From the NCBI GenBank assembly GCA_902727915.1, contig CACVAU010000053.1, forward strand, positions 1 to 24,552: DNA of 24,552 bases, written 5' to 3'. The number at the start of each line of letters is the position of its first letter. Positions within the stretch are counted from its first letter, which is position 1. The position numbers and the translations under genes are program-made. The DNA is from an uncultured Sulfurovum sp. (lineage in GTDB: Bacteria; Campylobacterota; Campylobacteria; Campylobacterales; Sulfurovaceae). This document shows, piece by piece, positions 10,334-24,045 of this stretch. The notes under the pieces are model-generated. The model was given only the letters and a program-made list of their open reading frames with translations, made no database searches and was not told where the DNA came from.

Positions 10334-10396
10334 GATAATTCTTTTGTCGTCGAAATAAGTCCTTATGTTTCTAGTCTCTGCTAGAAACGGTCTTTT
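10334..10396 (+). ncRNA. Possible small RNA unit: extended -10 plus terminator-like hairpin
   Basis: On the plus strand TGAGATAAT (extended -10) ends at 10339. About 27 bp on, GTTTCTAG/CTAGAAAC (10367-10374, 10381-10388) forms an 8-bp stem with a 6-nt loop followed by GGTCTTTTAATTT. This could encode a transcript of about 50 nt. The same hairpin follows the stop codon of the minus-strand amidase at 10395 and may simply be that operon's terminator, although its minus-strand tail is not T-rich. Confidence 0.2.
10367..10388. terminator. Hairpin after the murein operon, probable terminator
   Basis: A perfect 8-bp stem (GTTTCTAG/CTAGAAAC) with a 6-nt loop begins 7 bp past the last stop codon of the NamZ-amidase operon. 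The T-rich tail lies on the plus-strand side (GGTCTTTTAATTT), and the minus-strand side reads ATAAGGAC, so its polarity is opposite to the operon. Confidence 0.45.
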
Positions 10397-11069
10397 AATT
10401 TATTGCAGTCGACAAATTCAAATCAAGAACTTCATTACGAACATCAAACATAAATTGATCACCTGGGTCAGACTTCTCTGTTCTATACCCTTTGTCCAAC
10501 TCTAACCACAAATCACTACCTTCCATTTCACGGTACTCATGATGTCCTATTAAATGTGTAATGGTATTGTATTTCTTTTTTAGATAACGTACTAAAGCAA
10601 TATTTGCTTTAACTTGTGCAGGAGTAAGGTCTTCTTTGTTATTTGATTTTCCACCAATGTTTTCAACCCCTATACTCGAATAGTTCAGTCCAATTACATG
10701 ACGAGCCATCCAATTTTCTGGCATGAGTCTATAGATGGTGCCATCACGCTTTACCATAAAATGAGATGAAACATTTAGCGCAGAAGCTTTTACAATGTCT
10801 TTTCTGTCTGAAAAAAGTTTTTGAGGTTCCAAACGTTTAAAACTTTTTTTGAAACTCATGTCTGCTGTCCAATGTAAGACAATAATCCGTGGTTCTATTT
10901 CAATGTTTTCAACGTCATAACCATAATGGTCTTTTATATAAGCCTTTGTCATGTCAATACGTTCTTGACCAAAATTTATGGGTTTATCAATAATCTTAAT
11001 TTCTTCCATATCATTGGCAAATGCCAAAGTTGTCAATAGACTAAGTGTTAGTAGTGTTTTTTTTATCAT
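10395..11069 (-). CDS. Exported N-acetylmuramoyl-L-alanine amidase, Amidase_2 type
   Basis: A 224-residue zinc amidase that cuts the bond between MurNAc and the L-Ala of the stem peptide. Residues 1-18 are a signal peptide (MIKKTLLTLSLLTTLAFA), placing it in the periplasm. The Amidase_2 (AmpD/PGRP) fold spans about 60-205. The zinc ligands are H66 in VLHWTA, H176 in LIGHHEY and D201 in KSDPG, with E136 in IGVENIG as the likely catalytic Glu and conserved H124 in ARHV. A segment of about 40 residues before the domain is unassigned. Its start lies inside the upstream amidase gene (29-bp overlap), so both are made together. It is the last gene of the operon that starts with NamZ. Confidence 0.9.
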   Translation of the reverse strand: MIKKTLLTLSLLTTLAFANDMEEIKIIDKPINFGQERIDMTKAYIKDHYGYDVENIEIEPRIIVLHWTADMSFKKSFKRLEPQKLFSDRKDIVKASALNVSSHFMVKRDGTIYRLMPENWMARHVIGLNYSSIGVENIGGKSNNKEDLTPAQVKANIALVRYLKKKYNTITHLIGHHEYREMEGSDLWLELDKGYRTEKSDPGDQFMFDVRNEVLDLNLSTAIN

Positions 11070-11664
11070 TATCTAATTCCTTTATTATAAAATAGGCAAT
11101 TTTAGCTGCCACCTCACCCAACCGTGGTTCTAACCAATCGGTTTGTTTTTTACACGTTATTTCACCCAACTCTAAGACCAAAAACCCTTTACTTGTGTTT
11201 ACTTTAGAAAAACCATAATACTCACTTAAATTTTTTGTAAAATTATCACTATGCCATTTAAAAGGAAAAAACTTTTCATATTCAAGTCGCCAATTTTTCG
11301 CCAAAAGTTTAGAACCTACCGAAGCATCATGACCGATGGAAGCTCCTGTTAAACAAGCTGTTTCTGAACCATCAAAATGAATGGCAATAGCAATCACAGC
11401 ATTTGCCTTAGGAATTTTTGCACCAACGCGTGTAACAAGTATGTCATTTTTTTTCAAAATCTCTTCAACTCTAATCGCAACACGTTCATTCCATTCTGAT
11501 TCCACTAAACCATTATGTATTGAACCTATGTTACCAGTAATTCGCCCAACATGTCCAGCCTGTATCAATACCGTTGTCTTCAGTATACGTCCATTCCAAA
11601 TAGCAATAATCAATAGCAAAAACATACCCCAAGCAAGAAGCATTAAAACTTTTCGTTCGTTCAA
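11041..11664 (-). CDS. N-acetylmuramoyl-L-alanine amidase, Amidase_3-like, membrane-anchored
   Basis: A 207-residue protein starting at a TTG codon (11664) with AGGAG 6 nt upstream. Residues 6-23 are a hydrophobic anchor or uncleaved signal. The catalytic domain (31-200) follows the Amidase_3 (AmiC/CwlV) pattern: zinc ligands H38 in QAGHVG, E55 in GLVESEWN and H96 in AIAIHFDG, and catalytic E165 in LVLELGE. These enzymes remove stem peptides from glycan strands. At about 170 residues the domain is near minimal size and lacks an AMIN or SPOR targeting domain. It follows NamZ by 9 bp and overlaps the Amidase_2 gene, so two amidases of unrelated folds are co-expressed. Confidence in the fold is good, in exact substrate lower. 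Confidence 0.8.
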   Translation of the reverse strand: MNERKVLMLLAWGMFLLLIIAIWNGRILKTTVLIQAGHVGRITGNIGSIHNGLVESEWNERVAIRVEEILKKNDILVTRVGAKIPKANAVIAIAIHFDGSETACLTGASIGHDASVGSKLLAKNWRLEYEKFFPFKWHSDNFTKNLSEYYGFSKVNTSKGFLVLELGEITCKKQTDWLEPRLGEVAAKIAYFIIKELDNDKKNTTNT

Positions 11665-11673
11665 ATACTACTC

Positions 11674-12819
11674 CTAAGGGTAAAGTAAATAGTTTTGACG
11701 CATCGCTTTAAATGTATTTAAACCTTGTTGCCAACTATGCTTAATCTCTTTTTCACTCTTTCCAGCCAAAACTTGCTGACGTAAATTATTTGACCCAGCC
11801 AACTTATCTATAAATCTGTTTTTCAAAAAGAATTTCTTTTTATAAGGGTAATGCTTATATGCATCTAAAATATAAGCTAAGTTAATCCCAGCATTTGCAT
11901 CTATAAATTCACCAGACAAGTCTAGCCCATAACAAGTTTTATTTTGATGTTTAGGGTACTTAGCCCCCTCACGTGAAATAGGCTTAAAAGTAAAATTCTT
12001 TTTAGTATAGTGAGGACTACCATAAATTTGAAACTGTTGCACCGTTCCACGACCAGCTGAAAAAGTCGTTCCCTCAAAAAATGCCAATGAGGGGTAAAGA
12101 TAAATAGACAAATCATTAGGTAAGTTTGGTGAAGGCTTAATACTCAAAGTGTAAGGCATACTATGGGTATAGTTTTGCAAAGGAACAACGGTTAACTTCG
12201 CTTTTCGATGTCCTTTTAACCACCCTTCGCCATTTATCATTAACGCATACTCACCAATGGTCATGCCATATAAAATTGGCACAGGATGCATTCCTACAAA
12301 TGAGGTGTACTTCATGTTTAACACTTCACCATCTATACGACCACCATTAGGGTTTGCTCTGTCTAAAACAATTACTTCTATGTTTGATTCAGCAGCAGCT
12401 TCCATAATATAATGCAGTGTAGAAAGATAAGTATAAAAACGCACACCTACATCTTGAATGTCAAAAACAAGTACGTCTAAATTCTCCAAACTCCTTTTAG
12501 AAGGTTTTTTATTTTTTCCGTAAAGAGAGACAATGGGTAAACCAGTTGCACTGTCCATTCCATTTTTAATATAAGCTCCAGCATCAGCCTTGCCTCTAAA
12601 ACCATGTTCAGGGGCAAAAATTTTACGCACATTTATTTTTTGAGCCAACAATGAGTCAAGCAGATGTTCACCATAAACCATTGAAGATTGATTCACAACC
12701 AATCCAACATTTTTACCTTGTAACTTAGGTAAATATTGACTACTTTGTTCAGCGCCAACAATAATATTAGCAAACAGAAAAAGAGGAGCAAGAAGAAGAA
12801 AAAAGAGTTTTTTTAACAT
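11674..12819 (-). CDS. namZ: NamZ-like exo-beta-N-acetylmuramidase (DUF1343, GH171)
   Basis: A 381-residue exported enzyme with a signal peptide at 1-17 (ending LFA) and the DUF1343 domain filling the rest, the usual family length. Conserved blocks are FAPEHGFRG (68-76) with E71 and H72, SLYG (98-101), FDIQDVGVRFYTY (119-131), LDRANPNGG (152-160) and LYGMTIGE (183-190). NamZ of Bacillus subtilis releases terminal MurNAc from the non-reducing end of peptide-free glycan. In that organism it is encoded with an amidase and NagZ for murein recycling. Here it is followed by two amidases, which would strip the peptides NamZ cannot tolerate. No NagZ is visible in the window. It starts the operon. The Shine-Dalgarno is weak. 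Confidence 0.88.
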   Translation of the reverse strand: MLKKLFFLLLAPLFLFANIIVGAEQSSQYLPKLQGKNVGLVVNQSSMVYGEHLLDSLLAQKINVRKIFAPEHGFRGKADAGAYIKNGMDSATGLPIVSLYGKNKKPSKRSLENLDVLVFDIQDVGVRFYTYLSTLHYIMEAAAESNIEVIVLDRANPNGGRIDGEVLNMKYTSFVGMHPVPILYGMTIGEYALMINGEGWLKGHRKAKLTVVPLQNYTHSMPYTLSIKPSPNLPNDLSIYLYPSLAFFEGTTFSAGRGTVQQFQIYGSPHYTKKNFTFKPISREGAKYPKHQNKTCYGLDLSGEFIDANAGINLAYILDAYKHYPYKKKFFLKNRFIDKLAGSNNLRQQVLAGKSEKEIKHSWQQGLNTFKAMRQNYLLYP

Positions 12820-14207: not shown

Positions 14208-14741
14208 CTATTTTTTAAAATACCTAGAAACTAATTTATGAGCATAAAGGTCATTCATATCGTTGATTATCACATTTATAACTTTTTCTATATTCTCTTC
14301 AAATTCACTTTGTTCATCTTCATTTGTTTTTCGTTCCAGTTCAAATAAAGAAATTCTCTTATTAACCTCATCACTCTCCGTAAGATTTTTATAGATTCTA
14401 TGATTATAGACTTCTACCTCATGATTATGATTTAACGTATGAAAGGCTGTTCGTAGCTCCAATGAAGCATATACTTCATTTTCCAAATATATCTTACGTA
14501 AATCTAAGAAAAACTGATAATATTCAGATGCAAATTTTTCAAAATTATTACTATCAATTCTTAAAAAATCTAAATGTTTTTTTCTCATTTGGATAATAGC
14601 ATTGAGAGGGTTATATAAGTTTTTAAGTTGTTCTTTGGATCTATCTAGTTTTAGGTTTCTCTGATGCAAGAATATGTTAGCCGTAGTTACTATTGTCGCA
14701 CCTACAATAGCACCTATTCCTATATTATTTAAATCCAACAT
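14208..14741 (-). CDS. Membrane-anchored hypothetical protein coupled to the Fic-like gene
   Basis: A 177-residue protein with one N-terminal membrane helix at about 6-26 (IGIGAIVGATIVTTANIF), then a helical, charged cytoplasmic region with coiled-coil character. I recognise no family; similar short TM-plus-helix proteins are annotated only as hypothetical. Its ATG shares one base with the stop codon of the Fic-like gene (TAATG), the strongest sign that both are translated from one message in fixed ratio. It may tether or inhibit the Fic-like protein, or act as a membrane effector; this is inference from coupling. It contains no cysteine and no recognisable catalytic motif. Confidence 0.75.
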   Translation of the reverse strand: MLDLNNIGIGAIVGATIVTTANIFLHQRNLKLDRSKEQLKNLYNPLNAIIQMRKKHLDFLRIDSNNFEKFASEYYQFFLDLRKIYLENEVYASLELRTAFHTLNHNHEVEVYNHRIYKNLTESDEVNKRISLFELERKTNEDEQSEFEENIEKVINVIINDMNDLYAHKLVSRYFKK

Positions 14742-15547
14742 TACAACTCTCCTCTCAAAGGCTCATTTTTCTCACGCTCCTTACTCTCTTCAACAGCAAC
14801 AATAGCCTCAACTGTCTCTTTATATGTCTCAATAAAATAGCATTTAAACTTATCATAAGAACCTGTTTCATAATACTCAACAGTAGCTACTAAATGCTCC
14901 CTAATCTTCTCTTCATTTGGAATATAAACCATTTGCTTGTCATGTTTAAGTGAAACATTGAGCATCATTCTTGCTGTTCGTTGATTACAATCTTTGAAAT
15001 ACTGTAAATAAGCTAAGTTACAATGAATATACAACGCTCGATTAAAAGGATTTTCTATGGTGGCATATTTACTTAGCATGTAGTTCAACTCATCATCAAG
15101 TTTCTCTTTCGTTGCCAAAGGTACATAACTCGAAGCTTTAATGGTCACCTCACCATCTCTAGGCATAGCTCGTTCACCATCAGCTAACATCTCATCAGAT
15201 AAAATGTAATGCAAATCTTTCAAGTTCTCTTTACTAACCGTTAAATCTTCAGCAATAAATTTATCGTAAGCCAATTTCATATTTAAAATCATCTTGGCAT
15301 CACTATACTTTTTACCCCCTGCTGTACGACCATACTCTAGCAAGGTATAAGTGTCATGCTTATCATAAGTATTCCCCTCTATTTTAGAAGAAGTATGGAT
15401 GAAATCCATACCAAACTTTTCTATGTAGCTTTTATTGGATAGAAATTTTGATAGGGAGACTTTGGTGTTTAATTCTTCTAATAAAACTAGTTTTTGGTTT
15501 GTGAAAATGTTTGTTTTTTCTAGGAAGTTTGGGTTGTAGGGTATCAT
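14741..15547 (-). CDS. Fic-like protein with degenerate active site
   Basis: A 268-residue Fic-fold protein. The inhibitory helix motif S53-S-K-I-E57-G58-N is intact and, being N-terminal, marks class II. The core motif at 182-193 reads QYFKDCNQRTAR against the canonical HxFxDGNGRxxR. The catalytic His is Gln182, and the two glycines are Cys187 and Gln189, while Phe184, Asp186, Asn188 and both arginines remain. Without the His base, AMP transfer by the standard mechanism is unlikely, yet phosphate-binding residues persist. It could bind nucleotides, use another chemistry or be a regulator. No DUF4172 or DNA-binding domain is seen. AGGAG lies 8 nt before the ATG. It heads a two-gene operon under a near-consensus promoter. 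Confidence 0.82.
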   Translation of the reverse strand: MIPYNPNFLEKTNIFTNQKLVLLEELNTKVSLSKFLSNKSYIEKFGMDFIHTSSKIEGNTYDKHDTYTLLEYGRTAGGKKYSDAKMILNMKLAYDKFIAEDLTVSKENLKDLHYILSDEMLADGERAMPRDGEVTIKASSYVPLATKEKLDDELNYMLSKYATIENPFNRALYIHCNLAYLQYFKDCNQRTARMMLNVSLKHDKQMVYIPNEEKIREHLVATVEYYETGSYDKFKCYFIETYKETVEAIVAVEESKEREKNEPLRGEL

Positions 15548-15588
15548 TTATTTGACTCCTCATAAAAGGATTTAGCTTTTTTTAGTTC

Positions 15589-15617
15589 ATTATAACTAAG
15601 AACTCTTTACAGGTCAA
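15589..15617 (-). promoter_or_regulatory. Strong sigma-70-type promoter of the Fic-like operon
   Basis: On the minus strand TTGACC (15617-15612) and a perfect TATAAT (15594-15589) are exactly 17 bp apart. This is the best promoter match in the window. Expected start near 15582, leader about 35 nt. Confidence 0.7.
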
Positions 15618-15640
15618 TCAAAGAACTTCCTTGGTATAAT
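15612..15640 (+). promoter_or_regulatory. Extended -10 promoter of the methyltransferase gene
   Basis: TTGGTATAAT (15631-15640) contains TGn plus a perfect TATAAT. Its -35 position (15612-15617, GGTCAA) is not consensus and coincides with the -35 hexamer of the opposing promoter, so the two polymerase sites overlap. Expected start near 15647, giving a leader of only about 20 nt before the TTG at 15667. Confidence 0.55.
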
Positions 15641-15666
15641 TTTTGAAATTATAGAATGGATCAGAA

Positions 15667-16926
15667 TTGGTAATATTAGATTTATTTTCAGGTGCAGGTG
15701 GTCTTTCAGAAGGCTTTTTTAGAGAAGGTGCTACTTTTGTTGGTCATGTAGAAGCTGATACTTATGCTTGTGATACTTTACGAACAAGAAGTGCTTATTG
15801 GAATTTAAAAAATAATAATAAATTAAATATTTATCATAACTACCTTTTGAAAAAAATTACCCGTGATGAATTATGGGATAAAGCGAATATTACAAATTCG
15901 AATGAAGTTATAAATTCTACAATTTCAGATGAAACATTCAATAGTATTACTCAAAAAATAAAAAATAATTTAAAAACTAAAAAACTAAAAAAGATTGATA
16001 TTATTATTGGAGGTCCTCCTTGTCAAGCCTACTCTATTGTAGGCAGGGCAAGAATGAAAGAATCTGTATCCTGTGACCCACGTAATCTTTTGTATCAATA
16101 TTATGTTCAATTTCTTAAAGAGTTTCAACCTAAAAGATTTGTGTTTGAAAATGTACCAGGACTAAAAACAGCTGGTGGGGGTCAATATTTTCAAGATTTA
16201 AAAAAAGCTCTTGATAAGGTAGGTTACCATATTGAACTTGATGAACTTATCGCTTCTGATTATGGTGTTTTACAAAATAGAAAACGAATTATTATAATTG
16301 GATGGAGAAAGGATAAACGACGAAAAAACTATACTTATCCTGCATTTGAAAAAATAGAGAATAGATATCTTGTTAAAGATGTATTAAATGATTTACCACG
16401 AACAAAACCTAAAAATATGATTGAAGGAAAAGGGAAGTATATAGATAAACCTAACAAGTATCTAAAAATATCAAAAGTTAGAGAAGATGATTTTGATATT
16501 TTAACTCAACATGAGACAAGAATGCATAATAAGAGAGATTTAGAAATATATAAAGAAGCAATAACAGCTTGGAATAGAGAAAAAAAACGACTTTGTTATG
16601 CAGAACTAGCAAAAAGAAGACCTGAGTTGATTACACATAATAATACCCACTCTTTCACTAATCGATTTAATGTTGTCAAAGCTAATGAGCCTGCTTCACA
16701 TACTATCTTAGCTCATATAGCAATGGATGGTCACTACTATATCCACCCAGATATTACACAACTCCGTTCACTCTCAGTTCGTGAAGCTGCAAGGTTACAG
16801 TCCTTTCCTGACGATTTCTATTTTGAAGGTCCAAGAACTTCACAGTTTAGACAAATTGGTAATGCTGTTCCTCCTAAAATGGCTGAACAGATTGCAAAAG
16901 GGATAAAAGAAATTCTCAAAAAATAG
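15667..16926 (+). CDS. DNA (cytosine-5-)-methyltransferase
   Basis: A 419-residue C5 cytosine methylase. All core motifs are present in order: I DLFSGAGG (5-12, S-adenosylmethionine binding), IV GGPPCQAYS (115-123, nucleophile C119), VI ENVPGL (161-166), VIII QNRKRI (203-208), IX REAARLQSFPDDF (372-384) and X QIGNAVPP (396-403). The target-recognition region lies about 230-355 and the site cannot be read from it. Residues 45-108 form an AT-rich, Lys/Asn-rich insert between motifs I and IV. The start is TTG, as the nearest upstream ATG runs into a stop. Likely role: methylating host DNA to protect it from the restriction genes facing it. It ends 2 bp before the stop codon of the AIPR gene. Confidence 0.95.
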   Translation: MVILDLFSGAGGLSEGFFREGATFVGHVEADTYACDTLRTRSAYWNLKNNNKLNIYHNYLLKKITRDELWDKANITNSNEVINSTISDETFNSITQKIKNNLKTKKLKKIDIIIGGPPCQAYSIVGRARMKESVSCDPRNLLYQYYVQFLKEFQPKRFVFENVPGLKTAGGGQYFQDLKKALDKVGYHIELDELIASDYGVLQNRKRIIIIGWRKDKRRKNYTYPAFEKIENRYLVKDVLNDLPRTKPKNMIEGKGKYIDKPNKYLKISKVREDDFDILTQHETRMHNKRDLEIYKEAITAWNREKKRLCYAELAKRRPELITHNNTHSFTNRFNVVKANEPASHTILAHIAMDGHYYIHPDITQLRSLSVREAARLQSFPDDFYFEGPRTSQFRQIGNAVPPKMAEQIAKGIKEILKK

Positions 16927-16928
16927 TT

Positions 16929-18986
16929 TTACCAAACACTCTTCATCCCTTCATCTTCCAAATACAAAATAATCTCTATAATCTTTTTAGACTGTTTATC
17001 AGAAGGGTACTTTCTTGATGGGATTAAACTTAATAGTTGAATTTGAGATGAGTCAAGTAGTTTTTTTTCACTACCCCATCTTATAATATCTTGCCAAGTA
17101 TCAAAAGAGAGCTTATACATCTTTTTCAACAACTCCATAGAGTTATCTATCTTCTGCTCTTTTTTTGCTTCTTGCTCTTCATACTTTACTTTTTCTTTTG
17201 AAACTAAAGAGTCTAAGAATTCATTAGTTAATTTCAACTTATTGGTACTGATTAAAATATCTTGTAGTTTTATCCAACAGGTATCTTTTTTACACCATTC
17301 TGAAACATTTGTAAACTTTTCTGGGGTATTGGTAATATAGTTATTTATATATCTACTAATACTCTTTAGTTCTGATATAAAAATCGTGTTTATCTCTTGT
17401 TGCTTCCAAATACTTGAAAAGTCTATACTCTTTTTTTCTTGCTTAATTAAAAAAGAAACTGTAGAGAGTGTATAAGCAACAATATTGGCTTTATAACCAC
17501 CATACCAAGACTCTTTAAATACTATCCTATCACAAGTTTTAAATATAATAATTTTAGCAATAGAGTGCTGATAATATAAGTCATTAAACTCTTTATCATT
17601 TTTATTCCATAAAGGGACAATTAACTTGCCAAACTCTATAAAGTTCTTTTGAGCTCCTCGTGAAACAATATGGGGTTTTTCCTCCCAAACCATTAGAAAC
17701 TTCGCTAAATCTGTTTTAGAAAACTTTTGTGCATTTGGATGAATCTCTTTAAACTCTTTTTTCTTAGTTGGCGTCAATTTTGATTGAAGTTCTAAGTACT
17801 GACCTCTTGCTCTTTCATAGAACCATTTTGTCTTTTTAAGTTCTCCATCTTTTACAGGAGTCCAAATTCTTCGAGACTTCTCTTCCATTCGGATATGATA
17901 CATATCGTTTGAAAAGAAATCTGCTTCACTAACTTTATTTTGAGTATTAGAAAATCGTGATATATTAGGCACAACATCATTAATCTTATCATCATGAATA
18001 ATCGTCAACTTCATTTGAACAAAAATATTGTTTAATGGTGTTTTATCACTTTTTCGTGTATTAAAGAGTGCAGCTGTTGTTTGACCACCATTTACGATTT
18101 GAAAGTTTTTTAATCTCTTAATTTTATTACTGTCATCTAACTCAATATCTTCAGCTGTTGCTGTAATTCCATTATTGTAGGCAAAAAACATATTAGGGTT
18201 TTCATTAATTGTTTTACGTATACCTTTATTAACATTTCCTCTGAGTTGCAAGAAACTTCTTACATTTGACTCTAAAAGTCTTGCTCCATACTTCTCATAT
18301 AAATCAGCCAAGATATCACCGTTAAGTACACAAAGATAGGAGTGATAAGGAGAAGTTAAAATATGGGCAGGGAGAGCAGGTATTGTGGTATTAAACTCAT
18401 CTTGAAAATCAATTAGTAATGTCTCTTTTTTAGTTTTGGAACTCTCAATTTCATAAAACCTCTTCATATCCCAAACCGAAGAATTTACTTCATATTCTTT
18501 TATCTTAAAAGAAGGAAGTTTTTTTACTCTACTACTTAAAACCTTATTACTCACAAGTACTATATTTATAGATTTATATCTAAGTTGACTTTTATATAAA
18601 AAGTAAGCTATTTCATACCCAGGAGAAGTCTCTTCTAATTCAGAGTATAGTTTTTGATACACTGATTGATTAATAAACTTAGTTACTCTTCGTATACTAG
18701 TCTCAATGTCAGTCTGTGTCAATGTTTTTAAAATATAATCATCATTAAAATCACAAATAAAAATAGTCAAAATTTCTCTATCTTCAATATAGTAATAGCC
18801 ATCAACTTTCATACCCAAGCTTTTATGTCGAAAAGGCAGATGATAATAATCTTCGACTACACCCTCTTCTATTATATACTCCATAGATTTTGTAAAAAAT
18901 TGATTCTCTTTAAAGTCTTCCCCTATATCTGAAGCGACATATATCTCTTGCATAAAATCATTATAAAATTCTTCATACTCACTCAT
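16929..18986 (-). CDS. AIPR family protein (abortive-infection phage resistance type)
   Basis: A 685-residue cytoplasmic protein. The central region carries the AIPR blocks RSFLQLRG (243-250), FFAYNNGI (267-274) and QIVNGGQTT (296-304). The family takes its name from lactococcal abortive-infection proteins and is repeatedly found beside methylases, Z1 proteins and GHKL ATPases. Its biochemical activity is not established, to my knowledge. Residues 1-200 and 480-685 are unassigned, with a charged helical stretch near 610-640. GGAG stands 6 nt before the ATG. The gene overlaps the PD-(D/E)XK gene by 8 bp and is the last of the four-gene operon. No terminator fits in the 2 bp before the convergent methylase, so the two transcripts must overlap. 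Confidence 0.92.
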   Translation of the reverse strand: MSEYEEFYNDFMQEIYVASDIGEDFKENQFFTKSMEYIIEEGVVEDYYHLPFRHKSLGMKVDGYYYIEDREILTIFICDFNDDYILKTLTQTDIETSIRRVTKFINQSVYQKLYSELEETSPGYEIAYFLYKSQLRYKSINIVLVSNKVLSSRVKKLPSFKIKEYEVNSSVWDMKRFYEIESSKTKKETLLIDFQDEFNTTIPALPAHILTSPYHSYLCVLNGDILADLYEKYGARLLESNVRSFLQLRGNVNKGIRKTINENPNMFFAYNNGITATAEDIELDDSNKIKRLKNFQIVNGGQTTAALFNTRKSDKTPLNNIFVQMKLTIIHDDKINDVVPNISRFSNTQNKVSEADFFSNDMYHIRMEEKSRRIWTPVKDGELKKTKWFYERARGQYLELQSKLTPTKKKEFKEIHPNAQKFSKTDLAKFLMVWEEKPHIVSRGAQKNFIEFGKLIVPLWNKNDKEFNDLYYQHSIAKIIIFKTCDRIVFKESWYGGYKANIVAYTLSTVSFLIKQEKKSIDFSSIWKQQEINTIFISELKSISRYINNYITNTPEKFTNVSEWCKKDTCWIKLQDILISTNKLKLTNEFLDSLVSKEKVKYEEQEAKKEQKIDNSMELLKKMYKLSFDTWQDIIRWGSEKKLLDSSQIQLLSLIPSRKYPSDKQSKKIIEIILYLEDEGMKSVW

Positions 18987-19944
18987 TTTCTACTCCGTAT
19001 CTTAAAAAGTCTTCTTTAACTAAGAACTCTTTACACGCATCTAAATTAACTCTATAAGTAAGATTTTCTATACTTTGAGGTATTTTAGAGATACGAGGAA
19101 AACCGTCAATCACTTCATAGAATTCATCTATAGAAATTTTAAAGTACAATTCTTCATATTCACTAAGCTCTAAAAATCCATAAAGTAATAAAAGATGATT
19201 AAACTTATCAAGATTCTCTAATCCAATTAAATCTCTTATCTCTTTAATTAAATCATAAATGTTAAATGAGCTTTTATCTTTCTTCGTTGCATCAGTAAGT
19301 GTTAATACAAACAAATAAAGTTCATCTAATGTAGTAAATAACTGCTCAAAAGAAGAGATAGTAATAGCATTCATAGAAGCTTTTGTTTTGACTTCTATTG
19401 CCATATTGTTTAATTCAAAATCTTGTACAGATTGAAGAGGAGCTTTCCAAAAGCTTAACGCTTCATCTACTTCAAAGTTCTTTAAAAGATATTTATGTAG
19501 AAAAAAGAGTTCACCAATTAACCCTTTTAATTGTTTTTTATCTATTAAATTTCGACTATTTTTTAAAAAATACTGCCATTTTTCTAAACGCTTCAACAAT
19601 ACATCTATTGCTATATTTTCATCATTAATACCTTTAGTCGAAGCTAATAAATCCATACAAAGCGTATAAAAAATATCTTTATCCTCTTTTGAGGTTAATG
19701 TCAAAATAAGTTGATAAGTTTTCCCCACTTTTCCTATAGTTATCTTTATACCATTAAGTTTTGGAACTTTTTCACTGTTTTTAACATCTAATGTTGTATG
19801 CAAAATAAACAGTAAATTAGTACTTGAATCTCTACCCCAATAGAATTCTAATGGGCTTTCCTTATCTGCTAAAAGTACATTCAAATTCAACTCAGCACTA
19901 GGTACTTGTATTTTATTCCAAGGATTAATCTTCATCTTCATCAT
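18979..19944 (-). CDS. PD-(D/E)XK motif protein, putative restriction nuclease
   Basis: A 321-residue protein of the PD-(D/E)XK (DUF4420) type that accompanies Z1 and AIPR genes. The helix GLIGEL (141-146, E145) precedes the metal-binding core D175 in QDFEL and E184-V-K186 in MAIEVKT, the expected D...ExK arrangement for a magnesium-dependent DNA nuclease. The N-terminal 130 residues are a beta-rich region without an assigned function. The frame opens with three close ATGs (19944, 19941, 19935). GAGG is best spaced for the third, so the true start may be three codons later. It overlaps Z1 upstream by up to 20 bp and AIPR downstream by 8 bp. It is likely the cutting subunit. Confidence 0.88.
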   Translation of the reverse strand: MMKMKINPWNKIQVPSAELNLNVLLADKESPLEFYWGRDSSTNLLFILHTTLDVKNSEKVPKLNGIKITIGKVGKTYQLILTLTSKEDKDIFYTLCMDLLASTKGINDENIAIDVLLKRLEKWQYFLKNSRNLIDKKQLKGLIGELFFLHKYLLKNFEVDEALSFWKAPLQSVQDFELNNMAIEVKTKASMNAITISSFEQLFTTLDELYLFVLTLTDATKKDKSSFNIYDLIKEIRDLIGLENLDKFNHLLLLYGFLELSEYEELYFKISIDEFYEVIDGFPRISKIPQSIENLTYRVNLDACKEFLVKEDFLRYGVENE

Positions 19945-22585
19945 CCTCTTCTATAAAGTTATTATCTAGCCAAGTTTTATTTACTTTATAAGTAATAGCA
20001 CTTACTCTCCGTTTTCTTCTATCTGTATGACCAGGAAAACTAATACCATAAGCAACCACAGATGATAAGGATTCAGGAAAGACTCCTTCTTTATTTTTAT
20101 CTTGTAGTTTGAGTATATGTAAAATCAATAAAGGTTTTTCTCTTAACTTTCGATAGTCTACACCACTTGCCTTTTTACCACCTAACTCTTTTTTAAGTTT
20201 CTCTAGTTTAACTGATGACAAACCTATTTTTTCATCACTTATACTACCTACTCTTGATTTATTACCACTAATTTGTAGAGTTGAATTTGATATAAAAGAA
20301 GACCTCATTTCATGATAGATAGAAATATCATCTGTAACCTTTGTAACCCCACTATCTTTTTTAGAATTCGTAACAACAGCGACATCAAAACTCTGTATAT
20401 TTTGTTCAAGTAAATACTTTTCTATAGTCCCACCATCAGTTTTAATATTTAAAGGATGATTTTTATACGCTTTTATAAAATCTAAAACAACCGATACATC
20501 TATATCTCTCCAAAGAAAATTTTTCTTTTCAGAACTGTCAAGTTTTAAAGAAGCAAGAGAATTTATAAGTGTTTTTAAACTTCTCATATTTAAACTAATA
20601 TGTTGAGGATTATTACTAATCTTTCGAGTCTCTATTAACTCTCCATAATAATTAATAGAAACAATAGCATCAGAGGAGTGGTACATTTTATTTCTAGCCG
20701 TAATAATCAATGACTCATCATGGTTTTTTACTTTCAAACCATATTCACGAGGTGTTAAATCATGATCATTCATAACTTTAAATTCCTCTTTTAGCTCTTC
20801 GGTAGCTTCTGATATATGCCTATACCAACCAATAGCCTCTTCTCTCATATAAATTCTACATAAGTCTTCATATCCTGCTCTATAACCAAACCAGCGTCCC
20901 ATTTGTAATAAAGTATCATACATCTGTGAATTTCGTAAGAAATAACTAACGGTAAGTCCTTCAATTGTAAATCCACGAGATAAACTATATCCTCCAATAG
21001 TTATTGCATTTAAACCTACATCTTTATAGTTGTCATAATTTAGCTTCTCTTCTTTTGTCTTTTTACTGTTAACTAGAAAAACTTTTATTAAATCTTTGTT
21101 TTCATTAATTTTATCTAGGACATCTTCAAAAGAAACTTCTATATTTGAGAACTCTTTTACCCAAGAATTATATAAAGATTTCATCTTATCATTTTTAATC
21201 ATCTCTTCTAAAGATTTATGATAATTATACTGAATATATTGTTTTATTAATTGTAAATACTCATTGATTAACTCTTTTACTTGCTCTTGAATTACAACTC
21301 GAAAAGATACATTAACCAACATAGAAGAGTGTAGGTTTTTATTTTTTCTTATTTTTCTAGTTCCTATAGTTAATAAATAAACATTGACTGCTTCATACAA
21401 ACTTTCAGGTAAGCAATCAACTCTATCTTCTGCTTTTAACTTAACATCTAAACAGACCTCATTATCTGTGATTGTTCGTAATATATTATTATCACTATTA
21501 AATATTTTTTCAGCTCCAATATAATTACTTGGACTTTCCAGCGAAACGATAAAGTCTTCAGGAAACAGATCATCTCCATGTTCATCTGTTTTACTCTCAG
21601 GATTAATAAATATATTAGCAAATGGGGTTGCTGTATAGCCTACATAACTTCGTTTTTTAAACATTTTTAGTATTTGTCTAATTTGCCGATTAATAGTAGT
21701 TACTTCATCAGGATTCTTCTTTGTATTAATTGATGCATTATCTGCTTCATCATCAATAACTAGCAAAGGATATGTTGAGTATGACTTCTTAGTATTATTT
21801 GTCCCCAACCAGTCCAACAAGTTTTTTAAAGTATGCATATTCTTTTTAATTACTAAAATAACTGGAACATTAGAATCTTTAGGGTTAAAATTCAATGATG
21901 TAGCAATATCTTTATTAAAATCATACTCCGTACTTGTAAAAGAAAAAGGTCTAAACTCATTATTATATTTACTAACTCCTAACTCTTTTTTTTCTACAGT
22001 ATCAAACCCAATAAATCCACTATTCACTCTTGCTTGTGTTTGGGTTCTTAAATTATTATGTATACCTGCAATTAAAATAATAAGCTTATATCCTACGTCA
22101 GCTGCCCGATTAATCAAAGCTAAATAATTTGCTGTTTTACCTGATTGAACATTACCCATTACCAGACCTTTTTTAATACTCTCATTTTCTGTATGAGGAT
22201 TAGTCATAAAATCTAATGTTTCATCAGTCGTCTTAAATATTTTATCAACAACCTGACGAGAGAACCCCTCATCAACTGTTAAATAATTTCTATATCTATC
22301 AGAATAATACGTAGAAGGATTTTCCACTGTATGTAACCATGGTTCTTTCTCTTTAGACATAATTGTAGAAGCACGAGGAATACTAATTGTCTCTTCTGAA
22401 TGAATATCTTTACTTAATAATTCAATATCTTCTTTAGATAATTGACACCCCAACATCTCTAATTCTTTAGCTTTGACCCTTAATAACTTTTCAACAAAGT
22501 TAATTTCAGGAATAAACCCTTCTTCTTTTTGATCTAAAAAACTTTTTACCAGTTTTCTTGCTTTAGCTAAACACTCCATACTCAT
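19925..22585 (-). CDS. Z1 domain protein, superfamily-II helicase-like ATPase
   Basis: An 886-residue ATPase. Motif I (Walker A) is GNVQSGKT (144-151), Walker B is VIDDEAD (276-282) and a motif III-like GYTATP lies at 316-321. Then come GGYSLSRG (531-538) and QMGRWFGYR (561-569), matching motifs V and VI with the arginine finger, inside the Z1 domain. Residues 330-520 form an inserted or linker region. The expected role is an ATP-driven motor on DNA that loads or guides the nuclease. The N-terminal 100 residues are unassigned, and the C-terminus is acidic (EEDDEDED). GGGGAG stands 6 nt before the ATG, whose first base is shared with the stop codon of the upstream ATPase gene (TAATG). Confidence 0.93.
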   Translation of the reverse strand: MSMECLAKARKLVKSFLDQKEEGFIPEINFVEKLLRVKAKELEMLGCQLSKEDIELLSKDIHSEETISIPRASTIMSKEKEPWLHTVENPSTYYSDRYRNYLTVDEGFSRQVVDKIFKTTDETLDFMTNPHTENESIKKGLVMGNVQSGKTANYLALINRAADVGYKLIILIAGIHNNLRTQTQARVNSGFIGFDTVEKKELGVSKYNNEFRPFSFTSTEYDFNKDIATSLNFNPKDSNVPVILVIKKNMHTLKNLLDWLGTNNTKKSYSTYPLLVIDDEADNASINTKKNPDEVTTINRQIRQILKMFKKRSYVGYTATPFANIFINPESKTDEHGDDLFPEDFIVSLESPSNYIGAEKIFNSDNNILRTITDNEVCLDVKLKAEDRVDCLPESLYEAVNVYLLTIGTRKIRKNKNLHSSMLVNVSFRVVIQEQVKELINEYLQLIKQYIQYNYHKSLEEMIKNDKMKSLYNSWVKEFSNIEVSFEDVLDKINENKDLIKVFLVNSKKTKEEKLNYDNYKDVGLNAITIGGYSLSRGFTIEGLTVSYFLRNSQMYDTLLQMGRWFGYRAGYEDLCRIYMREEAIGWYRHISEATEELKEEFKVMNDHDLTPREYGLKVKNHDESLIITARNKMYHSSDAIVSINYYGELIETRKISNNPQHISLNMRSLKTLINSLASLKLDSSEKKNFLWRDIDVSVVLDFIKAYKNHPLNIKTDGGTIEKYLLEQNIQSFDVAVVTNSKKDSGVTKVTDDISIYHEMRSSFISNSTLQISGNKSRVGSISDEKIGLSSVKLEKLKKELGGKKASGVDYRKLREKPLLILHILKLQDKNKEGVFPESLSSVVAYGISFPGHTDRRKRRVSAITYKVNKTWLDNNFIEEDDEDED

Positions 22586-24045
22586 TATAAACTCCCCTTA
22601 TTATTTAAAAACTCTTCCCAACTATTTTTATATACAGAAAATGGTTCAGTTGATTTAAAATAGTTAATAAACTCATTATCTGTCATAAACTCTCTTTCTT
22701 TTAAAACTTTATATTTTGCCATCTCTTCCAATTCAATATTAGGAATATCTAACTTATTAATTGATTGAGGATTATTATTTCCTATATCAGCATACAAGGT
22801 ATCTTTTGGAAAGAAGTTTGAAATTAGTTTTAAAATTTTTTCAAATTCATATTCTTCTTCTTTATTTAATTTTTTACTAAAACTTTCAATTATAGGATGC
22901 TCTTTATTGATAGAATATGTTATCTCTCCTCTAGCACTTGTTCGCTCCCAAAAAGCAATACTATTATCTGATGCTCTACGACTTCGTCCCTTATAAACTC
23001 GAGTTGAACTTCCTATAATTTTCTCTATTATTTTTTTTAATCTCTGTCTGATTATTAAAGGTGGAGAAGCCTTAGATTTTTTTACATCTATCTTCCATAA
23101 ATCATCTAAACTGTTTGGTAAATCTATCTGTATTCTTGCAAGTTTATACATTTCTGATTGGGAAATCAATCTAAACCAAGTACCTGAAATAAGTAACCTT
23201 TTATTTCTGTAAACGTAAAAACCTTGATTTTTAAGATAACCTCCACTACCTGCATAATACTCATAATCTTGAGCTGATACTTTGCTGTAATGAGGAAGAA
23301 TATAGGGAGTAATTTTTATTTTCTCATCATTAACAGTAATAGTCTCTTCAGTTAACTCTTGAGTTGCTCTATGATGAGAGAAAAAAGGATCAAAAGCTTT
23401 TAATTGTTCTCCATTAATAAAAATATTAATTTTATCTTTCCCTTTCAAATAACGATGAAAAACTAGTTCTAAATGTTTTTGTAAGTTCTCTATTTTTTCA
23501 TAAACAACATCTTCATTAGCATCAGAGACACTATTATCTACAATCCTATCAGTCTCCTCCCATAAAATTAATGTTCCATTTGTCTTTAGCTCATCAACTT
23601 TATATAAAACAGATATTTCATCATTCTCTAAAATTTGCAATGACCAATCTTCTTCTTTAGCCACATAATCTAAATCCCAAACAGTAGCTACTTTTTGATT
23701 GTTTTGAGAAGAGACCACTGTCAATTTTCTACATTGAGAGAATGAAGCAGTTTTTAAACCAAGCCCAAAGCGACCTAAATCATTTGCATCTCGGCTATCC
23801 AATGGATTCTTTGTTCCAGGTCTCATAGCTTCAATCAGCTCTTCTTCTCTCATGCCTATACCATCATCAAGAATAGCCAAAGAGAGTTTTTTATTATTAA
23901 AATCAAAATAAATATAAATATTTTTAGCATTCGCAGTAATAGCATTATCAATAATATCAGCTACAGCACTCTCAAAGGAATAACCTATATCCCTAAGAGA
24001 TTCAATCAGAGAAGAAGCTTTTGGTAATAATTGTACAGAGGTCAC
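22585..24045 (-). CDS. GHKL ATPase of MutL/MORC type, restriction-system subunit
   Basis: A 486-residue ATP-binding protein starting at GTG (24045), with AAAGGG about 7 nt upstream. The GHKL fold is marked by the N box ADIIDNAITA (29-38, N34 for magnesium, D30 at the usual catalytic Glu position), the G1 box LDDGIGM (59-65) and the G2 box GRFGLGLKTAS (91-101). Residues 110-330 fit the transducer domain that follows in MutL and Hsp90. The C-terminal 150 residues are unassigned. Such ATPases dimerise on ATP and could act as a DNA clamp or switch. It is the first gene of a four-gene operon with Z1, nuclease and AIPR. A TATACT hexamer at 24088-24083 is the probable -10. Confidence 0.93.
   Translation of the reverse strand: MTSVQLLPKASSLIESLRDIGYSFESAVADIIDNAITANAKNIYIYFDFNNKKLSLAILDDGIGMREEELIEAMRPGTKNPLDSRDANDLGRFGLGLKTASFSQCRKLTVVSSQNNQKVATVWDLDYVAKEEDWSLQILENDEISVLYKVDELKTNGTLILWEETDRIVDNSVSDANEDVVYEKIENLQKHLELVFHRYLKGKDKINIFINGEQLKAFDPFFSHHRATQELTEETITVNDEKIKITPYILPHYSKVSAQDYEYYAGSGGYLKNQGFYVYRNKRLLISGTWFRLISQSEMYKLARIQIDLPNSLDDLWKIDVKKSKASPPLIIRQRLKKIIEKIIGSSTRVYKGRSRRASDNSIAFWERTSARGEITYSINKEHPIIESFSKKLNKEEEYEFEKILKLISNFFPKDTLYADIGNNNPQSINKLDIPNIELEEMAKYKVLKEREFMTDNEFINYFKSTEPFSVYKNSWEEFLNNKGSL

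Follow-up and report, generated by a model that had tools for sequence, protein, structure and literature searches.

The MZA (MzaABCDE) system, reportedly described by Gao in 2020, belongs with several other known gene sets against which we compare here an intact five-gene set of DNA-defence type from an uncultured Sulfurovum-like bacterium, in which a C5 cytosine methylase adjoins a four-gene core containing a MORC-type ATPase. The set lies in a 24,552-nucleotide stretch, contig CACVAU010000053.1, hereafter called the window. It is real and, as a type, ordinary, having appeared in print at least twice. In the available parts of Iyer 2008 (PMC2292703), the third MORC operon type shares with the window a MORC with the motif GhXhhpXXRhl, a superfamily II (SFII) helicase with DThhQXuRhFG, a restriction-endonuclease-fold protein with E-D-ExK, and frequent cytosine methylases; AIPR is named there in the legend of a network figure, and a Sulfurovum sp. 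stands in the alignment's species list. Vsr, frequent in that type, is absent from the window. The putative Type II system of Miller 2022, in the portion of the paper available (PMC9523054), includes an additional AIPR and an associated MORC, both also present here; it further reports a putative transcriptional regulator, whereas none of that kind was identified in the window, whose last 507 bases carry no family assignment. The five genes are as follows.

15667..16926, plus strand: C5 cytosine DNA methyltransferase (419 aa, TTG start; PF00145, 1.8e-66)
16929..18986, minus strand: AIPR family protein (685 aa; PF22879 and PF10592)
18979..19944, minus strand: DUF4420 PD-(D/E)XK nuclease (321 aa; PF14390, 3.1e-63)
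19925..22585, minus strand: further core gene
22585..24045, minus strand: MORC-type GHKL ATPase (486 aa, GTG start; PF13589, 6.1e-39)

A sequence-only reading of the window had proposed this five-gene set with intact motifs, had placed it among the MutL-like-ATPase systems predicted by Iyer and colleagues, and had noted that the Vsr gene often near such sets is missing from the window. The profile searches that it suggested, run here with Pfam on 23 of the 28 listed open reading frames (ORFs) of the window, matched the families of the methylase, AIPR, DUF4420 and MORC proteins, and the motifs agree with those of the third MORC operon type. The observation is confirmed, and the interpretation given to it is supported in part. 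In the proposed scheme, the methylase would mark self DNA, and the products of the four core genes would act as clamp, DNA motor, cutter and probable sensor. In the open-licence literature, we found no worked mechanism for the gene set.

Homologues of MzaB, MzaC, MzaD and MzaE occur in the window in the same order as in a Neorhizobium control locus (L044), the window differing by its C5 methylase, which is convergent with the operon. Membership of MZA was nevertheless rejected, since MzaB to MzaE score 358, 500, 103 and 341 bits against NCBI equivalog cut-offs of 850, 1500, 420 and 1050. A PADLOC scan of seven ORFs (14208 to 24045) gave 285, 409, 57 and 257 bits, versus 584, 1302, 141 and 747 in the control. 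The sigma factor MzaA (195 bits in the control) had no match in these seven ORFs, no sigma-factor family was found in the Pfam-scanned ones, and no minus-strand ORF of at least 80 aa lies between the MORC gene and the window end, this negative covering the window alone. The CglI/NgoAVII systems, in the available text (PMC4267653), comprise three genes, with a PLD-B3 protein as the nuclease, and exclude MORC and AIPR, unlike the present set; this type was likewise set aside, no PLD-B3 endonuclease family being detected in the Pfam-scanned ORFs. The HEF_HK/Response_reg_2 pairs, related to paraMORCs according to the accessible part of PMC8011034, offer a candidate likeness, a GHKL gene pair with a C5 methylase as its neighbour.

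The MORC protein retains DDGIGM, GRFGLGLKTAS and the S5 motif GFYVYRNKRLL (residues 275-285, aligned in 22 rows), thus showing both the GHKL and S5 hallmarks of prokaryotic MORCs according to Iyer 2008, and the separate SFII helicase protein of the set carries the signature of the third operon type as DTLLQMGRWFG (its residues 557-567). In GHKL motif I of the MORC (residues 29-36), all 19 lettered rows carry Asp in place of the usual catalytic Glu, three more being gapped, and this replacement may slow ATP hydrolysis in this MORC clade. In the closest relative (85% identity), a Vsr gene (L001:9516-9929) directly precedes the MORC gene; none does so in the window. Bacterial MORCs are simple relatives of the eukaryotic chromatin MORCs, which are thought to remodel chromatin (available parts of PMC2292703), and a housekeeping chromatin role in place of defence could be imagined on these grounds. 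The distribution makes such a role extremely improbable: the core is patchy, occurring in 20 of 397 genomes, with damaged copies in at least two, and integrase or AbiE genes adjoin five copies among those with neighbours scanned. These are AbiE toxin-antitoxin genes at L030 and L040 (AbiEii with a DUF6088 gene at the latter) and phage-type integrases at L026, L029 and L031, which we take as a sign of mobility of the core locus. Some operons carry an extra gene 3' of AIPR, either DUF6998-like (L031:11407-11910, below cut-off) or an HNH endonuclease (L036:11312-11989).

The cutting protein of the set is predicted to be DUF4420, a role open to direct testing. Its E-D-ExK motif is intact and invariant in 42 rows and in 24 wider rows, and its C-terminal half resembles DpnI and EcoRV with middling fold scores, so that both motif and REase fold are in place. 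The database entry of this protein begins three codons later (318 aa). The AIPR protein presents a different picture. According to a structure model (pLDDT 84, pTM 0.57) and fold matches, residues 1-186 adopt a PD-(D/E)XK-like fold, followed by a weakly matched ParB/DndB-like domain (~207-357) with NNG and IVNGGQT motifs, and by a helical C-terminal part. D62 and an acidic residue at 79 are each found in 7 of 23 wide rows, and Lys 81 in none of these nor in any of 48 close relatives; the window protein has D62 and D79, and Asn at 81. As no wide row holds a complete D-(D/E)xK motif, the AIPR N-domain probably does not cut. The sequence-only reading had DUF4420 as the cutter, with which the intact motif agrees, and AIPR as a possible trigger of abortive infection, a toxin set free by triggering or blocking of the restriction part. 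The latter idea draws on the name AIPR itself, derived from abortive phage resistance, and on an N-terminal HEPN RNase predicted in AIPR proteins by Makarova 2012 (PMC3506569, in the part available); however, the N-domain of this AIPR models as a PD-(D/E)XK fold rather than a helical bundle of HEPN type, and with the full catalytic motif missing throughout the rows we consider it very unlikely.

The methylase motifs DLFSGAGG, GPPCQ, ENV, QNRKR and QIGNAVPP, which we take to be motifs I, IV, VI, VIII and X, are all intact in a 13-row alignment. DISARM includes the genes DrmA, DrmB and DrmC. The top PADLOC model for the methylase is DrmMII (PDLC02649, 543 bits), and this being the sole Drm match among the seven scanned ORFs, DISARM membership was rejected. 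Across relatives, the methylase proves to have been swapped among widely different partner sets: one methylase clade adjoins diverged MORC cores and also other modules, and the histories of methylase and core conflict (p-AU 0.0003 and 0.0023). The C-terminal recognition region of the methylase remains largely unchanged beside these partners, and distant cores sharing the window's methylase form the closest group in just 1 of 220 core windows, a test of low power at 25-29% core identity that a short recognition element could escape. In Hymenobacter, a MORC core and a GHKL/response-regulator module both adjoin one, more distantly related, methylase. On Campylobacter plasmids (L042, L043), a methylase about 69% identical to the window's is convergent with a GHKL/response-regulator-like pair; these plasmids are conjugative, and a methylase of the same clade could shield them from hosts with MORC cores. 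An AspBHI-like methylation-dependent enzyme (RE_AspBHI_N and Mrr_cat; L048:14427-15596) lies between an MZA operon and a C5 methylase, an odd pairing.

The exchange results would also fit a methylase that is the sole specificity factor, recruiting or licensing whichever effector module is present, such that swapping it re-targets the core, much as PglX sets specificity in BREX. Yet the core window test is weak, methylase and core are not known to be physically linked, and two core loci have no methylase within the stretch fetched, so that we regard this as rather unlikely. Conversely, the core might ignore the mark and sense DNA ends, structure or replication state, the methylase being a hitch-hiking or anti-restriction cassette. 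This is distinctly unlikely: of 18 campylobacterotal core loci, 16 include a methylase gene, which in nine of them overlaps MORC or lies directly before it on the same strand, and Miller 2022, in the available portion (PMC9523054), places a methylase among the core genes. The exchange amounts to a natural swap through which target choice in such systems can be tested; it and the contrast between DUF4420 and AIPR are useful additions, neither found reported in the open-licence literature. The comparison thus turns a 'restriction-like' label into testable claims on DUF4420, on the AIPR N-domain and on whether target choice resides in the methylase.

Elsewhere in the window, two Fic-domain genes are found on the minus strand (2-661, cut, and 14741-15547), one with DUF4172 and one between a bestrophin gene and the methylase. 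Overlapping Amidase_2 and Amidase_3 genes beside a NamZ muramidase gene (10395-12819, minus strand) form a small peptidoglycan-recycling cluster.
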